From positions 1 to 26,780 of IMG/VR virus record IMGVR_UViG_3300030106_002434: a stretch of DNA of 26,780 bases, one strand, 5' to 3'. Below, one piece after another: positions 2,593 through 19,588 of this stretch. Under the pieces are notes generated by a model, which had not been told where the DNA came from, did not search any database, and saw only the letters and a list, made by a program, of their open reading frames with translations. The stretch is from a virus. The number at the start of each line of letters is the position of its first letter. Positions within the stretch are counted from its first letter, which is position 1. A program made the translations under genes and the position numbers.

Positions 2593-2874
2593 ATGGTAAT
2601 GCAGATCGATAAGAATGTGCCGCTGCCAGATGAGAAGCGTGGCAGCAATCAATACAAAACCAAGTTCTCACACCTAAGCAAGATTATCGAAACGTGGGAG
2701 GTGGGCGACAGCGTGGCCTTTAAGTTTCACATAAAGAAATTTAAGAGCCAATCACGAACCTCGTTTTCGGCTGAAGCTATCGCTCTCAAAAACAAGGCAA
2801 AGGCGGTTGGGCAAAAAACATCGCAGCGCGTTATGGCTGATGAAGGCGTGATTCGAGTGTGGAGGGTGGAATGA
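2593..2874 (+). CDS. Small phage protein of the 'IDKNVPLP ... RVWRV' type, 93 residues
   Basis: I place the start at ATG 2593 because AAGGAG (2579-2584) lies 8 bases upstream. An earlier in-frame ATG at 2563 has no ribosome-binding site. The product opens with MVMQIDKNVPLPDEKRG, has a central GDSVAFKF strand, a segment SAEAIALKNKAKAVGQK and a C-terminal GVIRVWRV strand. This arrangement is common in small phage and plasmid proteins of unknown function. A relative lies at 8615-8947. Its TGA overlaps the methyltransferase start. Confidence 0.7.
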   Translation: MVMQIDKNVPLPDEKRGSNQYKTKFSHLSKIIETWEVGDSVAFKFHIKKFKSQSRTSFSAEAIALKNKAKAVGQKTSQRVMADEGVIRVWRVE

Positions 2875-3947
2875 TGAGAGTGCTGGATCTATTCAGTGGG
2901 ATAGGTGGGTTCTCATTGGGGCTGGAAGCTGCCGGTATGGAGACTGTCGCCTTCTGTGAGAAGGATTCATTCTGCCGCAAGGTGCTGGCCCAGCACTGGC
3001 CTAACGTGCCCGTACACAAAGATATAAGGGATTTAGATGGACAAGCATATCGGGGAACAGTTGACGTTGTTTGCGGAGGATTCCCATGTCAGCCCTTCTC
3101 AGTCGCAGGACTACGACAAGGGCAGGACGATGACCGTCACCTCTGGCCTGAGATGCTTAGAGTTATACGAGAATGTCAGCCCCGCTGGGTCATTGGCGAG
3201 AACGTTTCTGGGTTCATCCGAATGGCACTCGACGATGTGTGCGCTGATCTGGAGCGCGAAGGCTACGAAGTCAGGACGTTTGTACTACCAGCTTGTGCCG
3301 TCGATGCTCGCCACCGACGAGACCGAGTCTGGATTGTGGGCTACACCGGCAGCGAGTACCGGCGGCGGGATACCGATGGACGCAGAAGCCAAGGGGTGGA
3401 AGTGGGAGGGCTCCTACTGGAGGAGGCCGGACGGCTCGAAGTTTCAGACTCAGTTGATCGATCAAGCGCGGATGTGGCGCACCCCGATGAACTCGGACTG
3501 GAAGAACATGGACACCGCGAACCAACTCAGCCTGTCAAAGCAGGTCAAAGACCCCGCTCTGTGGCCCACACCAACAGTCAACGGGAACTACAACGCGAAG
3601 GGAGCCAGCCAGAAATCGGGGGATGGTCTGGCAACGGCAGTGAGAAAGGCCGGAATGTTCCCGACCCCCACGACCAGGGACTACAAAGGCGGCAGGAAAG
3701 CCGAGACACTCGAGGCCAAGGGCAGACTACCAACCAACAGTCTCCCAGACTTGGTGAATTCTCAAGCGGGGGAGACTGGCCCCCTGAACCCGCCCTTCCT
3801 CGAATGGCTCATGGGGTTTCCCATCGGGTGGACAGAGTTAAAACCCTAGGCAACAGCGTTGTCCCAAGGCTTGTGGAAGTGATTGGAAAAATAGTTGTAT
3901 CATTGGACGAGAGTTATGGTACATTGGACGAACAAACAGAAAACTAA
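2871..3947 (+). CDS. dcm-like: C5-cytosine DNA methyltransferase
   Basis: A 358-residue DNA (cytosine-5) methyltransferase transferring methyl from SAM to cytosine. Visible motifs are I (DLFSGIGG, 6-13, SAM binding), IV (PCQPFS with nucleophile Cys73), VI (ENV, 110-112), VIII (RHRRDRVWIVG, 147-157) and X (GNSVVP, about 327-332). The start is ATG 2871, sharing bases with the previous stop, with GGAGG at 2861-2865. An ATG at 2874 is equally possible. Between motifs VIII and X (residues about 158-310) the frame is hydrophilic and low in hydrophobics, with repeated V-(A/P)-(H/D)-(T/P) units such as SVAHTNSQREL and NVPDPHDQGLQRR, unlike an ordinary folded recognition domain. A second open frame overlaps this region. 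The likely role is self-protection of phage DNA from restriction. The target sequence cannot be read from here. Confidence 0.92.
   Translation: MMRVLDLFSGIGGFSLGLEAAGMETVAFCEKDSFCRKVLAQHWPNVPVHKDIRDLDGQAYRGTVDVVCGGFPCQPFSVAGLRQGQDDDRHLWPEMLRVIRECQPRWVIGENVSGFIRMALDDVCADLEREGYEVRTFVLPACAVDARHRRDRVWIVGYTGSEYRRRDTDGRRSQGVEVGGLLLEEAGRLEVSDSVDRSSADVAHPDELGLEEHGHREPTQPVKAGQRPRSVAHTNSQRELQREGSQPEIGGWSGNGSEKGRNVPDPHDQGLQRRQESRDTRGQGQTTNQQSPRLGEFSSGGDWPPEPALPRMAHGVSHRVDRVKTLGNSVVPRLVEVIGKIVVSLDESYGTLDEQTEN
3037..3849 (+). CDS. Overprinted frame inside the methyltransferase gene, 270 residues
   Basis: An uninterrupted 270-codon frame lies +1 to the methyltransferase and wholly within it. ATG 3037 has AAGGGA (3026-3031) 5 bases upstream. 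The product starts MDKHIGEQLTLFAEDSHVS, then MTVTSGLRCLELYE and SSEWHSTMCALIWSAKAT. It then has four [LM][WF]xTP units (LWATP, MWRTP, LWPTP, MFPTP; two followed by SDWKN or RDYKG) and ends NPPFLEWLMGFPIGWTELKP. I recognise this layout from phage and bacterial proteins usually deposited as hypothetical or methyltransferase-associated. The EWLMGFPIGW end resembles motif IX of C5 methyltransferases (RLQGFPDDW-like). Its composition is more protein-like than that of the methyltransferase frame over the same bases. Whether it is translated alone, by frameshift or not at all is open. Confidence 0.55.
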   Translation: MDKHIGEQLTLFAEDSHVSPSQSQDYDKGRTMTVTSGLRCLELYENVSPAGSLARTFLGSSEWHSTMCALIWSAKATKSGRLYYQLVPSMLATDETESGLWATPAASTGGGIPMDAEAKGWKWEGSYWRRPDGSKFQTQLIDQARMWRTPMNSDWKNMDTANQLSLSKQVKDPALWPTPTVNGNYNAKGASQKSGDGLATAVRKAGMFPTPTTRDYKGGRKAETLEAKGRLPTNSLPDLVNSQAGETGPLNPPFLEWLMGFPIGWTELKP

Positions 3948-4750: not shown

Positions 4751-4955
4751 TGCTGTAGACGAAAGGTTATACGAGGTAACCCTCACCCAGTCTGAAGTGG
4801 ATTTGCTACAGCGTTTAATGAAAGCATCCGCGGACGATCCAAGACTTCACGGCACCATCGGCACTTGCTTTTGGTTTCACGGTATCTTAGAAGAGGATAA
4901 CAAGCACTTCAAAGATACTTGGACTGCCCTCCAAGCGAAAGTGGAGGATCTCTGA
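4743..4955 (+). CDS. Hypothetical protein, 70 residues
   Basis: It overlaps its upstream neighbour by 8 bases. Its TGA shares its last base with the ATG of the next gene (TGATG). It opens with a strand-like YEVTLTQSEVDLLQRLM, the style of small phage proteins in which a beta strand precedes a helix. No family recognised. Confidence 0.65.
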   Translation: MTSAVDERLYEVTLTQSEVDLLQRLMKASADDPRLHGTIGTCFWFHGILEEDNKHFKDTWTALQAKVEDL

Positions 4956-5194
4956 TGACTGTTATGGCTGAGATGGAGGCGATGAAAAACTTGGCAGACG
5001 AGATACTAGGCAAGCTGACAGAGGGCATCAAAGACGCGCAGAGATATGAGGTCACCGTTTTCTACACGCACAATGAGAAGCTGCGCCATATGTCGTACAA
5101 AGACCTCACACTAGGCGACATCAGCACACTGCCAGAAGTTTTGTCTGGGGATGTTGAGTCTATGACGGTTCGTAAGATGAGGAAACTTTTATAG
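4955..5194 (+). CDS. Hypothetical protein, 79 residues, last gene of the early plus-strand block
   Basis: The start is ATG 4955, 7 bases after GGAGG (4943-4947) and in TGATG overlap with the preceding stop. An ATG 12 codons earlier would lie deep in the previous gene without a ribosome-binding site. The product has a helical N-terminus (MAEMEAMKNLADEILGKLTE) and a strand YEVTVFYTHNEKLRHMSYKD. Its stop codon lies at the edge of the first intergenic inverted repeat, so the mRNA would run directly into that structure. Confidence 0.65.
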   Translation: MTVMAEMEAMKNLADEILGKLTEGIKDAQRYEVTVFYTHNEKLRHMSYKDLTLGDISTLPEVLSGDVESMTVRKMRKLL

Positions 5195-5261
5195 GAATGA
5201 GCCGCTTGGGACGCCAGGCGACCGGCAGCGTCAGGTGGAGGACATCGCCATGTCCATTCCT
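5193..5261 (+). ncRNA. Candidate structured RNA: three-helix fold after the early operon
   Basis: By eye the plus strand folds into an outer helix AGGAATG (5193-5199) with CATTCCT (5255-5261), an inner hairpin GACGC (5210-5214) with GCGTC (5228-5232), and a second hairpin GACAT (5241-5245), loop CGCC, ATGTC (5250-5254). The last stem abuts the closing strand of the outer helix, giving a compact three-way arrangement of perfect pairs. There is no U-rich tail, so it is not a standard terminator. No known RNA family is recognised. It is a structural prediction without alignment support. Confidence 0.35.
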
Positions 5262-5272
5262 TATGAGAAATA

Positions 5273-5327
5273 GGAGCGATGATCGGAGGCGGCAGTCTGA
5301 AATCACTCTTAATCGCTCCAACTGCCG
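5273..5327 (+). ncRNA. Candidate H-type RNA pseudoknot
   Basis: GGAGCGAT (5273-5280) is perfectly complementary to ATCGCTCC (5312-5319). CGGCAGT (5290-5296) is perfectly complementary to ACTGCCG (5321-5327). The two helices (8 and 7 pairs) interleave, with loops of 9, 15 and 1 bases, which is the geometry of an H-type pseudoknot. The first helix would bury AGGAG (5272-5276) and the ATG at 5279 of a tiny frame. It lies in the convergent gap 11 bases after the three-helix element. The same complementarity exists on the minus strand, so the transcribed strand is uncertain. Confidence 0.35.
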
Positions 5328-5330
5328 GAT

Positions 5331-5432
5331 TTAACCTGAGATCAGATAAAGGACAAACGCAAACCCATACAGCGAAGCAACGACGCCAAGCCCAATCAGG
5401 ACGCCAGTCTTAACTTCATTATCAATTTTCAC
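5331..5432 (-). CDS. Putative 33-residue single-pass membrane peptide, GTG start
   Basis: Minus-strand frame from GTG (5432-5430) to TAA (5333-5331). The peptide has a short charged head (MKIDNEVKTG, GTG read as Met) followed by a clean hydrophobic segment of about 20 residues, ending SG. AAGGGA lies about 4 bases upstream of the GTG. It would be the last gene of the minus-strand primase block, about 150 bases after its neighbour. It is too short for a normal holin and could be a small membrane regulator. Its length makes chance possible, but the hydrophobic pattern is unusually coherent. Confidence 0.35.
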   Translation of the reverse strand: MKIDNEVKTGVLIGLGVVASLYGFAFVLYLISG

Positions 5433-5449: not shown

Positions 5450-5496
5450 AACCCTACCCGCCAACCAACTGGAGAATGCTTTTGACGGGCAGGGTT
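5450..5496. repeat. Inverted repeat, 10 of 11 pairs
   Basis: AACCCTACCCG (5450-5460) pairs with CGGGCAGGGTT (5486-5496) with one mismatch across a 25-base loop. On the minus strand it would be a hairpin in the leader of the putative membrane peptide, ending about 17 bases before its GTG. It lacks a T-tract, so intrinsic termination is unlikely. Confidence 0.4.
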
Positions 5497-5504
5497 CTGG
5501 GAGG

Positions 5505-7790: not shown

Positions 7791-7866
7791 AGCATTCTCC
7801 TTGCGAACCGTTGAAAAAAATGATATTTATTTGAGGACGTACTCCACGAAGGCCAGCCCCCCAAAC
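7791..7866 (-). promoter_or_regulatory. Intergenic control region before the primase-helicase
   Basis: A 76-base gap in an otherwise overlapping block. On the minus strand it contains an AT-rich run (AAATAAATATCAT, then seven T) ahead of the ribosome-binding site. It also holds one copy of a 12-base repeat and most of a perfect 17-base palindrome. A regulated start or a processing site for primase expression is plausible. No convincing -35/-10 pair is seen. Confidence 0.35.
7833..7844. repeat. 12-base direct repeat, copy 1
   Basis: GAGGACGTACTC, also found at 7880-7891. Five of its six symmetric base pairs match, so each copy is itself a near-palindrome, as in dimeric-protein binding sites. 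This copy is intergenic. Confidence 0.45.
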
Positions 7867-11956: not shown

Positions 11957-14900
11957 TTATTTCGTTCTGCCTACTCTTTCATCGTACAGCTTATTAAATT
12001 TATCGTATTGTAGCTGGATGTCGTCGTACATCTGCTCTTCTATCCTAGCAGCCCTTAATGCTGCTTGTGGATATTTAGCAGCAAGCTGTCGGGCTGAACT
12101 TCGTTGACGCCTAAGATCCCTAATCTTCTTCTCTGCTCTCTCTAGAGCCTTATCCATTGCTAAAAAATCTTTGTTCTCAGCACGATAAGCTATTCTCTCG
12201 CTACCTCTCAAATCATCTAATCGATCTAGCTTTTGTCTGACTCGTTGCCGACGCTCGTAGTAATCCGATACGCTTTCTTGTTCTGTCGGCTCGCCTTTTA
12301 TTCTTCTCAAGAAAGGTATCTCTCTAAGTTCTAACTCTTCTCCTTTACGCCATTTATCGAATGCATCAAGGTTTCTCAAACCAAACGTGCCAGCCCCGCC
12401 GAACAAGAACTCAGTGTAATGTTCCAGCGTATCTGGGGATATATCAATAAAGCCAGGCTCTCTTGGGTTGCCATCTGAAAGAGCGTTAAGTTTTTCAGCA
12501 ACAAACTTGAATGGCGCTCTAGTGTTATTCATATGCATTTGTGAGTCCGGCAGATCTGTGCCGAACCCTATGTTTTCTCTAAAAATTGGAGAGCCAAAGA
12601 AGTTTTCGTTAGATCCTATTTCAAGTCCTGGCTGCATAATCGTGGGAAATAATGAGTTAGGGCCAAAACCTATTGGAGAGAACGATCCTAAGAAAGAACT
12701 GGTGACACTAGCCGCTCCATCAGACTGTGACATGGTGCCGTTGAGAACATCGTGTGCTACTTGCCCAAAAACATGGAACGTGTTGTAGCCGTATGGTAAG
12801 GGTATCGTGTAGTAATACTGCTTTTCATCTTTGTACTCTTTACCGTCTTTATCTAGGTATGTGTTCCTAGCACCTTGCTCTGGTGGCACTGTTGGGTCAG
12901 CCATGATGACCATGTTTCTTTCTTTGACGTAAGCCGGTATCTCCGAGTAGTACGATCTGCCTGTCCTAGGATTTTCTTCGCTCTCCTCCTCTGCTTTCAT
13001 CGCAGTCAAAGCACCCAAAGCGATCAAGCCACCCACGGCACCTTGTTTGATTCTGCTTGCTTCACTACTAAATGGATTGCCTTTAGGGCCAAACAACCCT
13101 CTAGCAAAGTTGGCGGTGCCTTGAACGCTGGCATTAAAGAATAAGTACAAAGAGTTTAGGAAGTCGCCTGCCATTCCCTTGCGATTGAAGTTGATTGTGA
13201 GATTCTTGGCTAAGCTTGCCGCTCGCTTAACGGCTTGGTCCCTAGGCACCCCAGCGTTCAGTAGTTCATCCCGTGACGCTTTGAATGTGGCAAACCTTAC
13301 AGCGTTTTCAACAGCATCGTTCACATCTTCAACGAACCTTAAAACCTCCTGAAAACGCTTCTGTGTTGTCCCTAGCAGAGTTCCGTTTGCCATATCAATC
13401 ATAGATTTGATTGACTTGACTTGATCTTCTGGAGGTCTTGAGTGGAACCAGTCAGCCTTCGCTCCCGCCTGAACGTACTCAACGAAGTCTGCTTTATCTT
13501 TGCTAGATATGCCGGTAACAAAATCTGTGAGACGGCCCGTCTTTTCGTCGTATCTTCTCAAGCCTTTGTAGAACACACCCATAGAAGGGATTACATCTTT
13601 CAACACTTTGTTTACTAATGCTTGATCTTTGGCCTTACCAGAAGACATATCCTGTTCTCCAAGGATATTGAAGATCGCGGTCTGCACGTCTTTGGTGAAG
13701 TTGCCTATAACAAACTCTGGGTTCAATGATGTGTTCACCATCGATAACCAGCGATTAACGATGCCAAACTTTTGCAGTAATTTATCTACTGTACCAATAT
13801 CCATCGATACGACTGCATCGCGCATCCTAGGGTCGTTCAATTCGACGTAAACTTGCTGACCGTCAACCTTCACACCTATCAAGTCTTTATCCATGATTGG
13901 CGACAGAAAGTCTTTTTTGACTGTTATTAGTTGGAGAAAGTCTTTCCTATCCATACCCTCTGGTATCTCTGAAAACTTTCTGCCTTGTAGCTCTGGGTCT
14001 TTGCCTACATAAGTGAATTTTTTCTCAAACCCTCTAGACATTCTTGGGTCTTCTGGGGAGATAACGCGCCAGAAAGCATCATCAGGCGCTGCCTTAATCA
14101 GATTGACTAGCCTCTGGCCGAACTCTTTGTTCTTGATCGATCTAGCAATGGCTCTCTCGGCATTGAGAAGTATATGTCCAAGCGGTGATTGGGCGGCAGA
14201 CTCTCTGCCCATAGCTCTGAGAGTCTCTTTGCCTTTTGTGCTGAGTCCTGCATTGACGATAATTGATTCAGCGTAATCATCTTCAATATCTTTACCCCTA
14301 AGAGGGGCATAGTATTTATACGAATCCATGATCACATCAGCGTTTTCTCTGGATATAAGCCCACCAGCAACTGTGGTGTTCATTGTCTCTCTGACTATCT
14401 GATCTACGTCATTTGCTATATCAAGAAACTTTTTTGCTCTAGCATTGCCGCCACTCCATGTGCCAGTCTCATCGTTCCAGTCAAGGTCGTATCTTGTTTT
14501 CATACGCTGCTTGACGAAACTATCTGTAAGAGGATCGCCAGATTTCAGCGTACCAGATCCTGGATTCTTTTCAGGGTCGCGCTGAGGGTCTCGCAAAGAT
14601 ATTGTTTTGTTGCGCTCGATTGCATGCCGTAGGATTAAAAACTCATCGATTTCATCCAAATCAAGCTTTAGCTTTGCAATCTTGTTCGCTAGGGGCTTCT
14701 TTCTGTTTTCGACAAACTCTCTTGATGCGAATCCTATTTTGCCTGGTATGCTTTCTTCACCTCGGTACGGAGAGAACTCTTCTGGTAACGCTCTCAATCC
14801 GAGACTTTTGCGATAGTCTTCGACTTGCTTCTCAACATTTTTGTAGCCGACAAGCTTGTCTTGTATTTGGTAGATGAACCTATTGCCCAAGCTATGGCTG

Positions 14901-17900
14901 TTAGACTGGATGGATAACGGCGTTGCACCGTCTAATATCTCTTGTTGAACTACCGCTTTTTGAAGTTCTGGATCTTGATCGGCGGCGTGTCTTATTGAAC
15001 CCTCTTGATTCCGTTCTGAGAATCTATCTGCTGCCCTTTGGCTTTCTTCGATTCTTGCAGCGAGTATTTGCGTATTAGGCGTTGCATCGCTAGGTTGCCT
15101 GCCAGCATCGCGTCTTTCTCTAGCATCTTGGAGTTTTCGTTCTGTGATTTCTGATATGGTTTCATTTGTCGAAGCTCCTTGATAACCAGCTTGCTTGGCT
15201 GCGTTAATCATATAAAACCATCGCATCGCTTGCAAAGACGCTGGATCGTTAGCTTTGCCAGAGACCTTGTCATATTCCTCTTTAAAAATTTTAGAGAAAT
15301 CTTGAAAAAGGGTATCTTCATCTACTGTTATCGGGACGCCTGTGTTCTTCTCGAACAACCCCTCAAAATAACTCCGTATGAATCGCGATTCCCACACATC
15401 AATCGTGGTGTATCGAGAGTCTCCAGTTAGATTTAAGGTGTAAGAACCTATCTTCTTACCGAAGATAAACATCCTTGGGATTAGTTCATCTTGTCCTGTG
15501 GCCTCCTTAACCAAGGACTTAATCGCGCCCATAGTTCCAACGTTACCCTTGTAGCCCATCGCACGATTAAACTCATGCAACTCTTTTACAGGGACACCCT
15601 CTCGTAAGTAGTCAACAGCCGCCTGCACGGGATTAGGTTCATTCGAGAACTGTTTCACAAGGCTATCAAAGACCTTGAGAGACATAGCTTTAGTGGGCGC
15701 AGTGGTGCCCGATATTTGGAACGGTGAGCTTGCTACAATACGATTGCCTTTAGGGCTAAGACCCAACTCAATGTCATCAAGGTTTCCCTTTTTGATATAC
15801 AGATCCAAAACGTTCAAAGCATCGCCAACGTTAGCCGACAGGACTGTAGCTGGTGACGTGAGTCCGTTAGCCACCTGATAGTACAGCATGTCATCTTCTG
15901 AAATAGAGCCGTATTCTCTTTCTAATGCTGCCTTGATCGCCCTCATGTCCTCTGCATAGTAATCGGCGTACTTTGGGTTTTGAGACACAAAGGTTTGCAC
16001 ATCTCTAATGGCACGTTTGGCAGCAGTTCTTACGTTTGCAGGGTCTGTGGTGCCTTTGATCTCCGCCATGACTTTAGGCCAGAACGTACCGAAGAACTCC
16101 TCCTCAACGGCAGAGTTATAGTCTGCATATTTTGTTTTCGCTCTTTCAACTAGGCTTTCTATTGGAGTAGTAGAGGGTCTTCTGGCAAAAGAAGGAGCTT
16201 CCTCTATGAGTTCTTCAGCAGTCTTTGGTGGCTCGCCTTCAACAGGCGCTGCTTTATCTAGATCCTCGTCTATCGCTCTGCCCACACCCCTTTCAGGGAC
16301 GGCACCTAACAGACGCTCTGTAGAGCGTAGAGTTCTGACACGACCTCTTTCTCTTGCGCCGATCTCACCAGACTCTAGTCTGTTGACTATATCCTCAAAG
16401 CTTTGAAAGCCAGTGCCTCGCAAGGCGTTACCAGTGCGCTCTATAAACTGATACATCCTGTTGACCATGGCCCTTGGCTTACCTGTCACCAATGCTCTGT
16501 CTTTACGCATGTATCTAATTAGTTCCGCAACCGCTTCTTCCATTTGACCAACTGGCGTCAAATCTCTATATCTTTTTTGAGCGTTGTTGAAGAAAGTTTC
16601 GTTACCAGTGCCCGGAAATATCTTATTCTTTGCAGCTTTCTCTAACAGACTCCACTCTGCATCTGTCCATAGATCCATCTCTCTCAACGCATGGACTATT
16701 TCGTGATCAAGTATTTCAGTTAGTGCGGCTTCTCTGGCCTCTGGAGTTTCGTCTCTAGCTATCTGATTTGCTCTATCAATCGCTAGAAACGTAGTCTTTG
16801 GCCCTCTGTTATAGTAACCAAGAGCCTGTGCAATCCTTTCGGTTTCTTTTGGTTCGCCGGTCAGGATAAGTTGTTGATCGCGTGTGACGGGGCCGAACTT
16901 CAAAACGTCAAGGACTCGAAGCTTTATGTCATCAAGACCCAAACCTGTCAGTCTTTGCTGCAAATTATATTCGAGTTGCCTTGCTTGATCAGAGGGGTCT
17001 TCCTCTGTGTAAGGTTCTGTTGTAAAGACTGGAGCAGGTTCTGGAGACGGAAGCGCCTCTAGCTCCTTAGTTGTACCGTCTGGATTTATAAGACCAGAAT
17101 CTAGTAACGCTTTACGCAGCCCCCTAGCTGTTATGTCTAGACGCCGCTCGTCTATGCGCTCCGAAATAAAGTCCCGTATATTTTCTATAGAGCCATCGGC
17201 TGTTGATCTGACATGGTCTAACGTTTGATTGTAGAGCTTGCGGGTGTATGGTTTTGGCCTGAAATCAGGCATAGATACTGGAGCATCACCTTGCACAACC
17301 GGCAACCTACTTAGTTCTGAAACGAGAACTAATCTCTGAGACGGTGACATGTTGGAAACTTCTGACTCGTTGACTATCTGCTCGAAGGCATACTTCATCG
17401 CAGGAGAATCAACGTCGGTGATAATGTTCTTTGATTCTAGAACATTTTTTATAGCCGCTTTGGTAGAGATATCATCTTTATACTCTGCTCTGCTTCGAGC
17501 GATTTCTGCGCCCACAGTACCAAAGTCTGTTATCTGATCAGTAGGTGATGTTTCTTTGATACCAGCCATGACATCAAAGACTCTAGGATAGTTATCGCCC
17601 AAAGCTTCCTTAGCCTCTATCAAAGAAAACTCATCTTTTTCAGGCAAGCCTTTCTTTCTACGCTCGAAGTTTATTTGCTGGGCTACTGTTAAATTAGAAA
17701 GAGGTTTGTAAAGCTTTTCCCCACGATCTGTAAGGGGTGGTACGCCATACTGCTGCTGATGTATAGAGTCAATCGACATACCTTCAACATACTGCGAGCC
17801 AAAACCAGTGGTTGTTTTACCGGCCTCGTTCAAGACCTCGGCGGTGATAGATCTGTTTTCTGGTCTGACCAATTTATGACCAGTCATAAATAGTGATGCA

Positions 17901-19588
17901 GATTGCTCTGGCGTATAGATATCTGGGGAAAGATCAAGCGCATCTATGACTGCATTAGTCACGTTGCGATTGATAAGTTCTTGATTTAGGTTGGATGCGA
18001 AGTGCGCGGCAGACTCGTATTCTCTTGCTGGGGTGCCGTACTCTTGGCCTGTTACCGTGTGAACAACCTTATATTGAACCAGAGGCACTTCTTCATATTT
18101 TTCTGTTCGTGGGTTGATTATCCCCTCTACAACCTCTTCAGACACCACATCGAACGTTCCAGCATCAGGGAAAACGCCGTCTTTTTGTGAAGCATCTCTG
18201 GCTATTTGAGAGGCGTAGGCTTTGCCCACCCTCTTATTGTATTCTGTGTCAGTAGACTCCCCGTAGCGTAGCGTTATGTCATCAAGTCTTTGTGTTGATA
18301 CAAAAGGTTTACCACCTCGGACAGACTCACCTATTGCCTCAATCTGCTCTTCTCTAGTCGGCCTTTGTCCAGCCTCTCTCTCTTGCTCGTATTCGAACTC
18401 TCTACCTAAGCGAGCTTCTATCTCTGCTTCACGCCTAGCTCTGTCGGCCTCTTCATAGTATCTATCGCGCTGTTGCTCTTCTTGCTCTCGTATTTGGAGT
18501 TCTTTTTCCTCTAAGGCTTGGCGCATCGCTTTATTGCGTCTGTTAGCAACGCCAACACTTACGCCGTCAAAAAGCGCACCGGCACCGAAACCAACAGTCA
18601 GATCGTCCCAGAGACTATCGCCAACCTCTATCGAATCGTCATAGAATCCGGCTTGAATCATGTCTTGAAGCAAGCTATTAACTGCTTCTTGTGTGGCTTC
18701 TATAGCTCCCGTCTTCAATGCGCTTGTTACACGCTCTGTGCCGGTAAGAACGCGAGACATTTCTTTCTGCAATCGTAGTTGCTGGTTAAGTGCTTGAGTT
18801 GCAGCTATCTCATCACCAGCTTCTTTCGCTTGCTGCTTAATCTTTTCTAGTTCTTCGTATTTTTGCCTAGGTTCTTTGATCCCTCTTATCTTCTTGAGAA
18901 CAGCTAAAGGTGCTATAGCCTCAAGTGTTCCGACACCAGCGCCCAGTAGTATTGCGTTGTCGGCAGTGTCTTGATCAACCTCTATGCCTTTGGCTCTTGA
19001 TGCAGCGATTCTTTGCTGTTGATCATCTCCACCAAAGCCAGCGCCAGTAGCTGTAACTGCGGTTGTTCCAGCAACGCCTCTTGCCGCTACTCCAGCACCA
19101 AGTCTGCCAGCCAATCCGGCAGCGCCTAAACCTGGCAAAGCGAAAGAGGATAAAGATCCTAACGCTTCGCTTAGCTTTACTGCGTAAGAATCTCTATAGG
19201 CATCACCAATACCTATGGAATCATCTATTGCTCTCTTACCTTCGTTTGCAAGACGGATAAGCTCGTTGTCTTCTCCGCTGTCGATAAGATCATCGAAGCC
19301 TAGCTTGTTGGTCGCTGAGTCTGCCACCGCTGCCAACCCTGCACCGGCACCCAGTAAGCCTTTGCCAAAACCACGGGCGACACCTTTACCCAATTCTGGA
19401 GCCAGACCCAGCGCATAGTCTGTTGTGCTCATCTCCTCAAATGCTGGGTTTACACCGAGCCTCTGAAAAAACTCATCACGATCCATCTGATCCGAGTAGT
19501 ACCTTTCATATATACCCGTAGCAAGATCATAGTCTGACAACTCGTCGTACTTTGGGTATTTTCGACGGATTTCTTCTAACTTTGACAA
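11957..19588 (-). CDS. Giant phage polyvalent (ejection) protein with zincin and LPD38-like domains
   Basis: A 2543-residue protein occupying 28% of the window. In order: an N-terminal helical motif (IRRKYPKYDELSDYDLATG), a Gly/Ala-rich hydrophobic region (about 65-230), charged coiled coils (about 240-420), and a zincin-like metallopeptidase with HEIVH at 962-966 followed by EEAVAEL. Then come a region around 1370-1400 (MFIFGKKIGSYTLNL, TTIDVWESRFIRSY) shared with polyvalent proteins, an LPD38-type domain from about 1930 (NPEFVIGNFTKDVQTAIF) through LYLFFNASVQGTANF near 2150, and a basic coiled-coil end. Such proteins are packaged and injected with phage or plasmid DNA and act in entry and counter-defence. 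The start is TTG 19588, chosen to keep the N-terminal motif. No strong ribosome-binding site is seen. Confidence 0.8.
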   Translation of the reverse strand: MSKLEEIRRKYPKYDELSDYDLATGIYERYYSDQMDRDEFFQRLGVNPAFEEMSTTDYALGLAPELGKGVARGFGKGLLGAGAGLAAVADSATNKLGFDDLIDSGEDNELIRLANEGKRAIDDSIGIGDAYRDSYAVKLSEALGSLSSFALPGLGAAGLAGRLGAGVAARGVAGTTAVTATGAGFGGDDQQQRIAASRAKGIEVDQDTADNAILLGAGVGTLEAIAPLAVLKKIRGIKEPRQKYEELEKIKQQAKEAGDEIAATQALNQQLRLQKEMSRVLTGTERVTSALKTGAIEATQEAVNSLLQDMIQAGFYDDSIEVGDSLWDDLTVGFGAGALFDGVSVGVANRRNKAMRQALEEKELQIREQEEQQRDRYYEEADRARREAEIEARLGREFEYEQEREAGQRPTREEQIEAIGESVRGGKPFVSTQRLDDITLRYGESTDTEYNKRVGKAYASQIARDASQKDGVFPDAGTFDVVSEEVVEGIINPRTEKYEEVPLVQYKVVHTVTGQEYGTPAREYESAAHFASNLNQELINRNVTNAVIDALDLSPDIYTPEQSASLFMTGHKLVRPENRSITAEVLNEAGKTTTGFGSQYVEGMSIDSIHQQQYGVPPLTDRGEKLYKPLSNLTVAQQINFERRKKGLPEKDEFSLIEAKEALGDNYPRVFDVMAGIKETSPTDQITDFGTVGAEIARSRAEYKDDISTKAAIKNVLESKNIITDVDSPAMKYAFEQIVNESEVSNMSPSQRLVLVSELSRLPVVQGDAPVSMPDFRPKPYTRKLYNQTLDHVRSTADGSIENIRDFISERIDERRLDITARGLRKALLDSGLINPDGTTKELEALPSPEPAPVFTTEPYTEEDPSDQARQLEYNLQQRLTGLGLDDIKLRVLDVLKFGPVTRDQQLILTGEPKETERIAQALGYYNRGPKTTFLAIDRANQIARDETPEAREAALTEILDHEIVHALREMDLWTDAEWSLLEKAAKNKIFPGTGNETFFNNAQKRYRDLTPVGQMEEAVAELIRYMRKDRALVTGKPRAMVNRMYQFIERTGNALRGTGFQSFEDIVNRLESGEIGARERGRVRTLRSTERLLGAVPERGVGRAIDEDLDKAAPVEGEPPKTAEELIEEAPSFARRPSTTPIESLVERAKTKYADYNSAVEEEFFGTFWPKVMAEIKGTTDPANVRTAAKRAIRDVQTFVSQNPKYADYYAEDMRAIKAALEREYGSISEDDMLYYQVANGLTSPATVLSANVGDALNVLDLYIKKGNLDDIELGLSPKGNRIVASSPFQISGTTAPTKAMSLKVFDSLVKQFSNEPNPVQAAVDYLREGVPVKELHEFNRAMGYKGNVGTMGAIKSLVKEATGQDELIPRMFIFGKKIGSYTLNLTGDSRYTTIDVWESRFIRSYFEGLFEKNTGVPITVDEDTLFQDFSKIFKEEYDKVSGKANDPASLQAMRWFYMINAAKQAGYQGASTNETISEITERKLQDARERRDAGRQPSDATPNTQILAARIEESQRAADRFSERNQEGSIRHAADQDPELQKAVVQQEILDGATPLSIQSNSHSLGNRFIYQIQDKLVGYKNVEKQVEDYRKSLGLRALPEEFSPYRGEESIPGKIGFASREFVENRKKPLANKIAKLKLDLDEIDEFLILRHAIERNKTISLRDPQRDPEKNPGSGTLKSGDPLTDSFVKQRMKTRYDLDWNDETGTWSGGNARAKKFLDIANDVDQIVRETMNTTVAGGLISRENADVIMDSYKYYAPLRGKDIEDDYAESIIVNAGLSTKGKETLRAMGRESAAQSPLGHILLNAERAIARSIKNKEFGQRLVNLIKAAPDDAFWRVISPEDPRMSRGFEKKFTYVGKDPELQGRKFSEIPEGMDRKDFLQLITVKKDFLSPIMDKDLIGVKVDGQQVYVELNDPRMRDAVVSMDIGTVDKLLQKFGIVNRWLSMVNTSLNPEFVIGNFTKDVQTAIFNILGEQDMSSGKAKDQALVNKVLKDVIPSMGVFYKGLRRYDEKTGRLTDFVTGISSKDKADFVEYVQAGAKADWFHSRPPEDQVKSIKSMIDMANGTLLGTTQKRFQEVLRFVEDVNDAVENAVRFATFKASRDELLNAGVPRDQAVKRAASLAKNLTINFNRKGMAGDFLNSLYLFFNASVQGTANFARGLFGPKGNPFSSEASRIKQGAVGGLIALGALTAMKAEEESEENPRTGRSYYSEIPAYVKERNMVIMADPTVPPEQGARNTYLDKDGKEYKDEKQYYYTIPLPYGYNTFHVFGQVAHDVLNGTMSQSDGAASVTSSFLGSFSPIGFGPNSLFPTIMQPGLEIGSNENFFGSPIFRENIGFGTDLPDSQMHMNNTRAPFKFVAEKLNALSDGNPREPGFIDISPDTLEHYTEFLFGGAGTFGLRNLDAFDKWRKGEELELREIPFLRRIKGEPTEQESVSDYYERRQRVRQKLDRLDDLRGSERIAYRAENKDFLAMDKALERAEKKIRDLRRQRSSARQLAAKYPQAALRAARIEEQMYDDIQLQYDKFNKLYDERVGRTK

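Follow-up and report, generated by a model that had tools for sequence, protein, structure and literature searches.

The convergent gap and the RNA that lies in it

The window, that is, the whole stretch of DNA analysed here, comprises 26780 bases of a 34952-base virus record, and the RNA described below lies in the gap that separates its convergent gene units. On the plus strand, genes extend as far as 5194; on the minus strand, they run from 6055 down to 5585 and then leftwards from 7790, encoding a 156-aa protein and a DnaB_C/Toprim primase-helicase. The last gene on the plus side (4955–5194, 79 codons from the ATG at 4955) is an early gene without a Pfam match (4958–5194); the RNA starts 6 nt after the end of its stop codon, which is immediately followed, as judged by eye, by a second in-frame stop (TAG GAA TGA). 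Around this copy of the RNA, neither a promoter nor a terminator is conspicuous. The early region also holds a plus-strand gene at 134–1045, whose product combines an ArdC N-terminal domain with a zincin-like metallopeptidase domain (anti-restriction type), and a C5-cytosine methylase gene at 2859–3947 (+), inside which a second open frame of 270 codons (3037–3849, +) is kept in the related loci L001, L002, and L005. Among the leftward genes, a single 2543-codon frame (11957–19588, −) encodes a giant protein. When 69 viral loci were gathered via protein homology to the primase-helicase, blastn aligned L001, L002, L003, and partly L005 with the window across the convergent gap, and the interval from the upstream stop codon to 5329 was well conserved, L005 included.

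The structured RNA occupies 5201–5328 on the plus strand (model match 5190–5329) and is composed of two pseudoknots, formed by the helices P0, P1, P2, and P3/P3b together with the long-range pairing PK. The counts given below for representatives refer to 27 sequences of less than 80% identity, drawn from 99 complete members of both sets of sequences that we collected. P0 is a 4-bp hairpin, in which GGCG (5217–5220) pairs with CGUC (5229–5232), and its 8-nt loop consists of a single A (5221), invariant in 27/27 representatives, and the 5′ strand of P1. This arrangement, with all four P0 pairs, is found in 27/27 representatives in four letter combinations, the variants being GGCC/GGUC (L011), GGUG/CAUC (L012 and L018), and GGUG/CGUC. 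The 7-bp helix P1 then pairs the P0 loop (CCGGCAG, 5222–5228) with the extreme 3′ end of the RNA (CUGCCGG, 5322–5328), every pair being kept in 27/27 sequences of the alignment A3 introduced below, so that a compact H-type pseudoknot results, the linker A between P0 and P1 constituting its one-nucleotide loop 1. Such a geometry, in which one nucleotide spans 7 base pairs, is standard for H-type pseudoknots whose helices stack coaxially.

The third loop of this pseudoknot contains the remainder of the molecule. The P2 hairpin (GGACAU-CGCC-AUGUCC, 5240–5255) has a counterpart in the same interval in 27/27 representatives, with varying letters and length, a count made without a shuffle control. 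It is followed by an unpaired purine-rich strand, GAGAAAUA (5265–5272), which reads GAGAAAYA or nearly so in most representatives, although the second-set members were selected by a pattern fixing GAGA...AG. P3 (5273–5280 with 5312–5319) has a loop with G as its first and A as its last letter in 27/27 representatives, and P3b (GGAG, 5285–5288, with CUCU, 5306–5309) is a short helix at a nearly constant position in 27/27, again counted without a shuffle control. Finally, the P3b loop is paired with the extreme 5′ end of the RNA through PK, formed between the core 5201–5205 of the strand GCCGC(TT) (5201–5207) and GCGGC (5289–5293); an extended PK would overlap 5287–5288 of P3b. Since PK binds the 5′ end and P1 binds the 3′ end, both ends of the RNA are tied in.

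Covariation and the first pseudoknot proposal

The evidence for this fold comes from sequences that share its layout but not its letters. Scans with a 19-base core, then with a looser 3′ motif, and then with a third pattern extended the collection, and 27 sequences were aligned as A3; the core and 3′ motif scans led to unrelated phages with the same layout and other helix letters. In A3, 405/405 cells of P1 and P3 are paired and 102 of them are doubly changed; none of 500 shuffles equals this, and pairing falls to 20–51% when the partners are slid by 1–3 columns. The covariance model R1 was built from A3 and a second model, R2, from A4, an alignment of 44 matches whose sources were chosen as loci already judged members; the model E-values rest on a shortened calibration. 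R1 scores the window copy, one of its own training members, at 106.1 bits (E 2.2e-21), and it detected 7 further loci (E 3.9e-11 to 8.2e-4) in 72 sources, consisting of 65 protein relatives fetched irrespective of the RNA and 7 others. Relatives gathered solely by protein homology carry the RNA too, a further search of 58 sources giving 4 matches below 1e-3. In the loci found with R1, positions invariant in A3 vary as well, and P1 takes such forms as GCGUGGG/CCCACGC in L010 and GUGGUGG/CCACCAC in L020. In A4, from which the same-copy contigs L070, L072, L073, L075–L077, and L155 were kept out, every P1 pair is kept in 43/43 complete members, and all 7 pairs occur in more than one letter combination.

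The second set was collected with a pattern that fixed only AGGCGA(7)CGTCAG and GAGA...AG, so that P1, P3, and PK were unconstrained. R2 was given 81 new loci among the matches listed; 57 matched, all with E ≤ 2.9e-11, and the other 24 gave no match at E ≤ 0.1; L372, on the contig of L051, was omitted from this scoring. The 41 distinct sequences among the matches listed (A5) have 608/609 P1 and P3 cells paired, 182 of them doubly changed, and again 0/500 shuffles match this pairing. For P3 by itself, the value is 99.7%, as compared with 100% in A3. Four loci, L013, L014, L023, and L030, are members by score that stand outside A4 and A5. In all, the aligned set comprises at least 101 matches to the models from viral contigs; 99 with a complete 3′ end were used for drawing the representatives, and two were left out.

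PK is also backed by compensatory change. A complementary pair of strands lies at the fixed place, in different letters, in 27/27 representatives, although it is short in L384 (4 bp), L332 (5 bp), and L071 (5 bp). The mean score is 17.07 within members versus 11.95 between members, and 0 of 20000 permutations reach 17.07; a first cross-member control had been weak (16.7 versus 14.8), as it set near-identical members against one another. In P3, L012, L018, and L020 have a few cells that are U-U or U-C; a single U-U cell occurs in L344. When read on the plus strand, the 27 representatives contain 12 G-U cells and 0 A-C cells, a bias that a plus-strand RNA would show, and the plus strand is therefore most likely the RNA. 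With compensatory changes thus seen in P1, P3, and PK, we have very little doubt that a new RNA family is at hand and that its fold is the one given here, which is supported well enough for structure solution and functional tests.

An earlier note on this DNA, made from the letters of the window, had proposed a smaller H-type pseudoknot with two interleaved helices, which would hide a ribosome-binding site and the ATG of a 44-codon frame. Both helices are indeed perfect in the window, the first pairing GGAGCGAT (5273–5280) with ATCGCTCC (5312–5319) and the second CGGCAGT (5290–5296) with ACTGCCG (5321–5327). A perfect interleaved pair of 8 and 7 bp within 60 nt, however, arises at least once in 20 of 100 dinucleotide-shuffled windows (mean 0.5), where the window itself scores 5 with overlapping placements unmerged, so that the letters alone prove nothing. 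The first helix is real and is identical to P3: all of its cells are paired in A3 (n = 27), and 6 of its 8 pairs show double changes. The second helix is absent from relatives. It pairs in only 41.3% of the A3 cells versus 100% for the first, five of its seven pairs deviate through broken cells only, L002 (about 94% identical) already lacks one pair, and among the 27 representatives the window alone retains all 7 letters. Its strands have other partners, 5322–5328 pairing with 5222–5228 in P1 and 5289–5293 with 5201–5205 in PK, and compensatory change backs both of these pairings and none backs the proposed one. Hence the RNA does contain pseudoknots, but not the interleaved pair that had been suggested, whereas the suspected continuity with a three-helix element just upstream was right in substance, the real RNA spanning approximately 5201–5328, about 130 nt.

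The translational role assigned to the element fared no better. AGGAG is not conserved, GGAGCGAT being replaced by GAAGTGAT, GGTCGCTT, GAGTAGAT, and others in relatives, and the ATG within P3 is TTG or GTG in many members. The invariant letters at this site, at the top of P3, form a U-A pair with a G-A mismatch after it, as would fit a structure rather than a start codon. The 44-codon frame shrinks to 20 codons in L003, to 6 in L078, and to a single codon (ATG TAG) in L005, and a coding role was rejected on the basis of these breaks. Taken together with the better, covarying partners of both strands, these findings leave almost no credence for a pseudoknot masking the start of a 44-codon gene. 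The frame overlaps a conserved 33-codon frame on the opposite strand (5331–5432, −), which encodes a small membrane-like protein (VKIDNEVKTGVLIGLGVVASLYGFAFVLYLISG) and is kept in L001, L002, and L003.

Distribution and relation to known RNAs

The carriers are many uncultured tailed phages belonging to several otherwise unrelated lineages, with one copy per record in every record that carries the RNA, including one in the 34952-base record of the window. It is present in 15 of the 69 loci found through protein homology, many of the others not reaching the likely place, and in 22 more whole records, all with a related primase, there were 2 matches at E ≤ 1, both of about 12 bits and taken as chance. 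From this patchy distribution we infer an accessory module that is gained and lost by phages, the membership of at least 101 matches being a lower bound. Among named phages, blastn of four members returned nothing or chance matches of 22–29 bases, blastn of a wider stretch of the window and tblastn of two neighbouring proteins returned none, and R2 found nothing in four cultured phages whose primases are distant. Plasmids searched with one member gave none. Among 80 listed loci in bacterial genome contigs, none exceeded 22.8 bits, a value taken as chance because the loci had been picked by a pattern within the model; and no match came from sampling 385 genomes of one class and 369 of another, which is weak evidence of absence because only 8 candidates were scored per genome.

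A 2017 study reportedly proposed 224 candidate RNAs, with which the RNA was compared by way of Rfam. At the gathering threshold, none of the 4227 families of Rfam 15 matches over the RNA in the window and 18 member loci, and a permissive search with three members produced chance-level matches only. GOLLD and ROOL are large, ornate phage-associated noncoding RNAs with an elaborate fold of several hundred bases, unlike the present RNA of about 120–180 bases. The RNA is likewise not described in the literature searched, including the consulted passages of PMC2864571, PMC12197685, and PMC8040213. The closest account in the literature searched is that of the STAXI motif, which, as far as the consulted part goes, is a pseudoknot in 2–3 tandem copies near ssb, integrase, and antirestriction genes (PMC2864571); members of the new family similarly lie near ssb-like and integrase genes, and the window contains an ArdC-like gene, but the new RNA is present in one copy and has five helices plus PK, and the Rfam searches of the window and members gave no STAXI match. 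The manA and wcaG RNAs, which covariation revealed in marine phages, are structured RNAs in the 5′ UTRs of metabolic genes according to the same source (PMC2864571), in contrast to the new RNA, which follows the stop codons of early genes with no fixed gene behind it and has no Rfam match to either. The RNA appears to belong to an elaborately folded class not described before, which gene callers would miss and no catalogued RNA family covers.

Neighbouring genes and possible function

The most regular feature of the surroundings is on the 5′ side. A frame of 45 codons or more on the same strand ends no more than 12 nt from the first base of PK in 20 of the 27 representatives, compared with fractions of 0.118 for random positions and 0.143 for positions outside long frames in the same loci. 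The genes concerned are unrelated, including the 79-codon gene of the window, ssb-like genes, an HNH-like gene (by eye), a SNF2 helicase gene, an HTH gene, and others; the small upstream proteins ending in DDIPF are presumed to be ssb-like from that ending, and the one that was tested has no Pfam match. By eye, TAnnAT stands six bases before the RNA in L102, L106, L157, L167, and their allies, other classes being without it. In L087 a second in-frame stop follows about 15 codons on, and inspection by eye gave no common slippery heptamer and no consistent sign of readthrough or frameshifting where the preceding gene stops. The 3′ side is equally varied, with an integrase gene, an HTH gene, an HD-domain gene, a methylase-like frame that resembles by eye the cytosine methylase of the window, a convergent gene, or no same-strand gene at all. 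In L113 and L097, near-identical long hairpins (GACAGAAAGCGCAAAAGGGTTGC...TTTTCTGTC) are repeated within 120 bases behind the RNA.

The start of the RNA at the stop codon of the gene before it makes transcription as part of an early (replication) operon very probable, as far as gene arrangement can tell, and since its neighbours on either side lack any relation to one another or are missing, it would serve none of them in particular. We propose that it works autonomously as a structured RNA and that, in the course of infection, it is most likely released or acts in trans on some host or phage component. For the statement as a whole, namely, a new family with the fold described, transcribed from early operons, autonomous and trans-acting, and gained and lost as a module, we estimate a probability of roughly 55%. 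The action in trans, judged from the sequences, is put forward tentatively.

Its closest rival is a cis-acting 3′ element at the ends of early mRNAs, residing in the 3′-UTR, where it would block 3′-to-5′ exonucleases or mark an mRNA cut, stabilising the early message and never working in trans. Such an element would agree just as well with the close spacing behind the upstream stop codon, would also account for both RNA ends being tied in helices, and would require no particular neighbour. On the other hand, an ordinary hairpin would suffice for this purpose, the unpaired purine strand together with the invariant A and G-A positions suggests a more specific task, and the RNA in L071, L334, and L012 sits 30–120 nt from the visible upstream frame. 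We regard cis action at the 3′ end as the less probable of the two.

It appears unlikely that the RNA is a self-cleaving ribozyme whose role would be to trim early mRNAs, cutting perhaps immediately 5′ of the PK strand in the way of HDV-like ribozymes. The attraction of this reading lies in the small size, double pseudoknot, conserved core, unrelated neighbours, and single copy of the RNA, in the lack of any visible upstream sequence requirement, and in the presence of a type II hammerhead ribozyme on the contig of one member (L131, 353–419, +; 41.7 bits, gathering threshold 37). HDV-like ribozymes have a nested double pseudoknot of P1, P2, P3, P1.1, and P4 with a catalytic C in J4/2, and, against this layout, the strand order PK 5′, P1 5′, PK 3′, P1 3′ matches that of HDV P1 and P2, both RNAs interleaving two long helices, a strand of which lies at either end of the molecule. 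However, P0 and P3/P3b have no counterpart in HDV, the PK 3′ strand is enclosed in a hairpin loop, and the Rfam searches gave no ribozyme over the RNA; membership in the HDV-like class was rejected on the basis of helix order and of this lack of a match. The order likewise differs from that of the hammerhead, twister, and pistol ribozymes, and no cleavage site is evident.

Control of the gene behind the RNA, as by a riboswitch or leader, could be considered for those members in which a same-strand frame starts 13–60 nt behind, about one-third of the 36 tabulated loci, and cis regulation is possible there. As an account of the family, it is most improbable, since the next gene is convergent in the window and in L005, L011, L020, L012, L013, L030, L051, L097, and L384, the genes behind the RNA are unrelated, and no common terminator and, by eye, no common ribosome-binding site that might act as an expression platform is recognised; a riboswitch or 5′-leader membership was rejected on the first two of these grounds. 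Also very improbable is a DNA-level element between convergent units, such as an origin, attachment site, or bidirectional terminator, which the convergent gap of the window and the phage integrase gene behind the L071 copy (with a similar-looking frame in L334) might recall, but which explains neither the tolerance of G-U pairs in the plus reading only nor a pseudoknot pairing across 90 nt, and which many copies outside convergent gaps contradict.

Within the trans-acting reading that we prefer, we speculate that the RNA may disarm a host factor early in infection; one way would be to act as a decoy for a defence or decay enzyme that depends on RNA. This idea, which has a small chance of being correct, draws on the patchy, early, and autonomous character of an RNA found beside unrelated genes and on the presence of the ArdC-like and cytosine methylase genes in the early region of the window; if true, the RNA would be a counter-defence module swapped among phages in the same manner as anti-restriction genes. 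Adenovirus VA RNA is a viral decoy RNA, and as a compact early viral RNA without a coding role it may be comparable in principle.

A second conserved hairpin is found in the window at 5454–5500 (GAACCCT.CCCG ... GGAGAATGCTTT ... CGGG.AGGGTTC), the loop of which has the same 12 bases, on the opposite strand, as a segment of the primase-helicase ribosome-binding region near 7792. As the loop repeats this region, a leftward transcript would end in a loop antisense to its own primase ribosome-binding site. The hairpin and the repeat are both present in the window, L001, L002, L003, and L005, and in L005 the same change occurs at the hairpin loop and at the primase ribosome-binding site (GGAGGATGCTTT).
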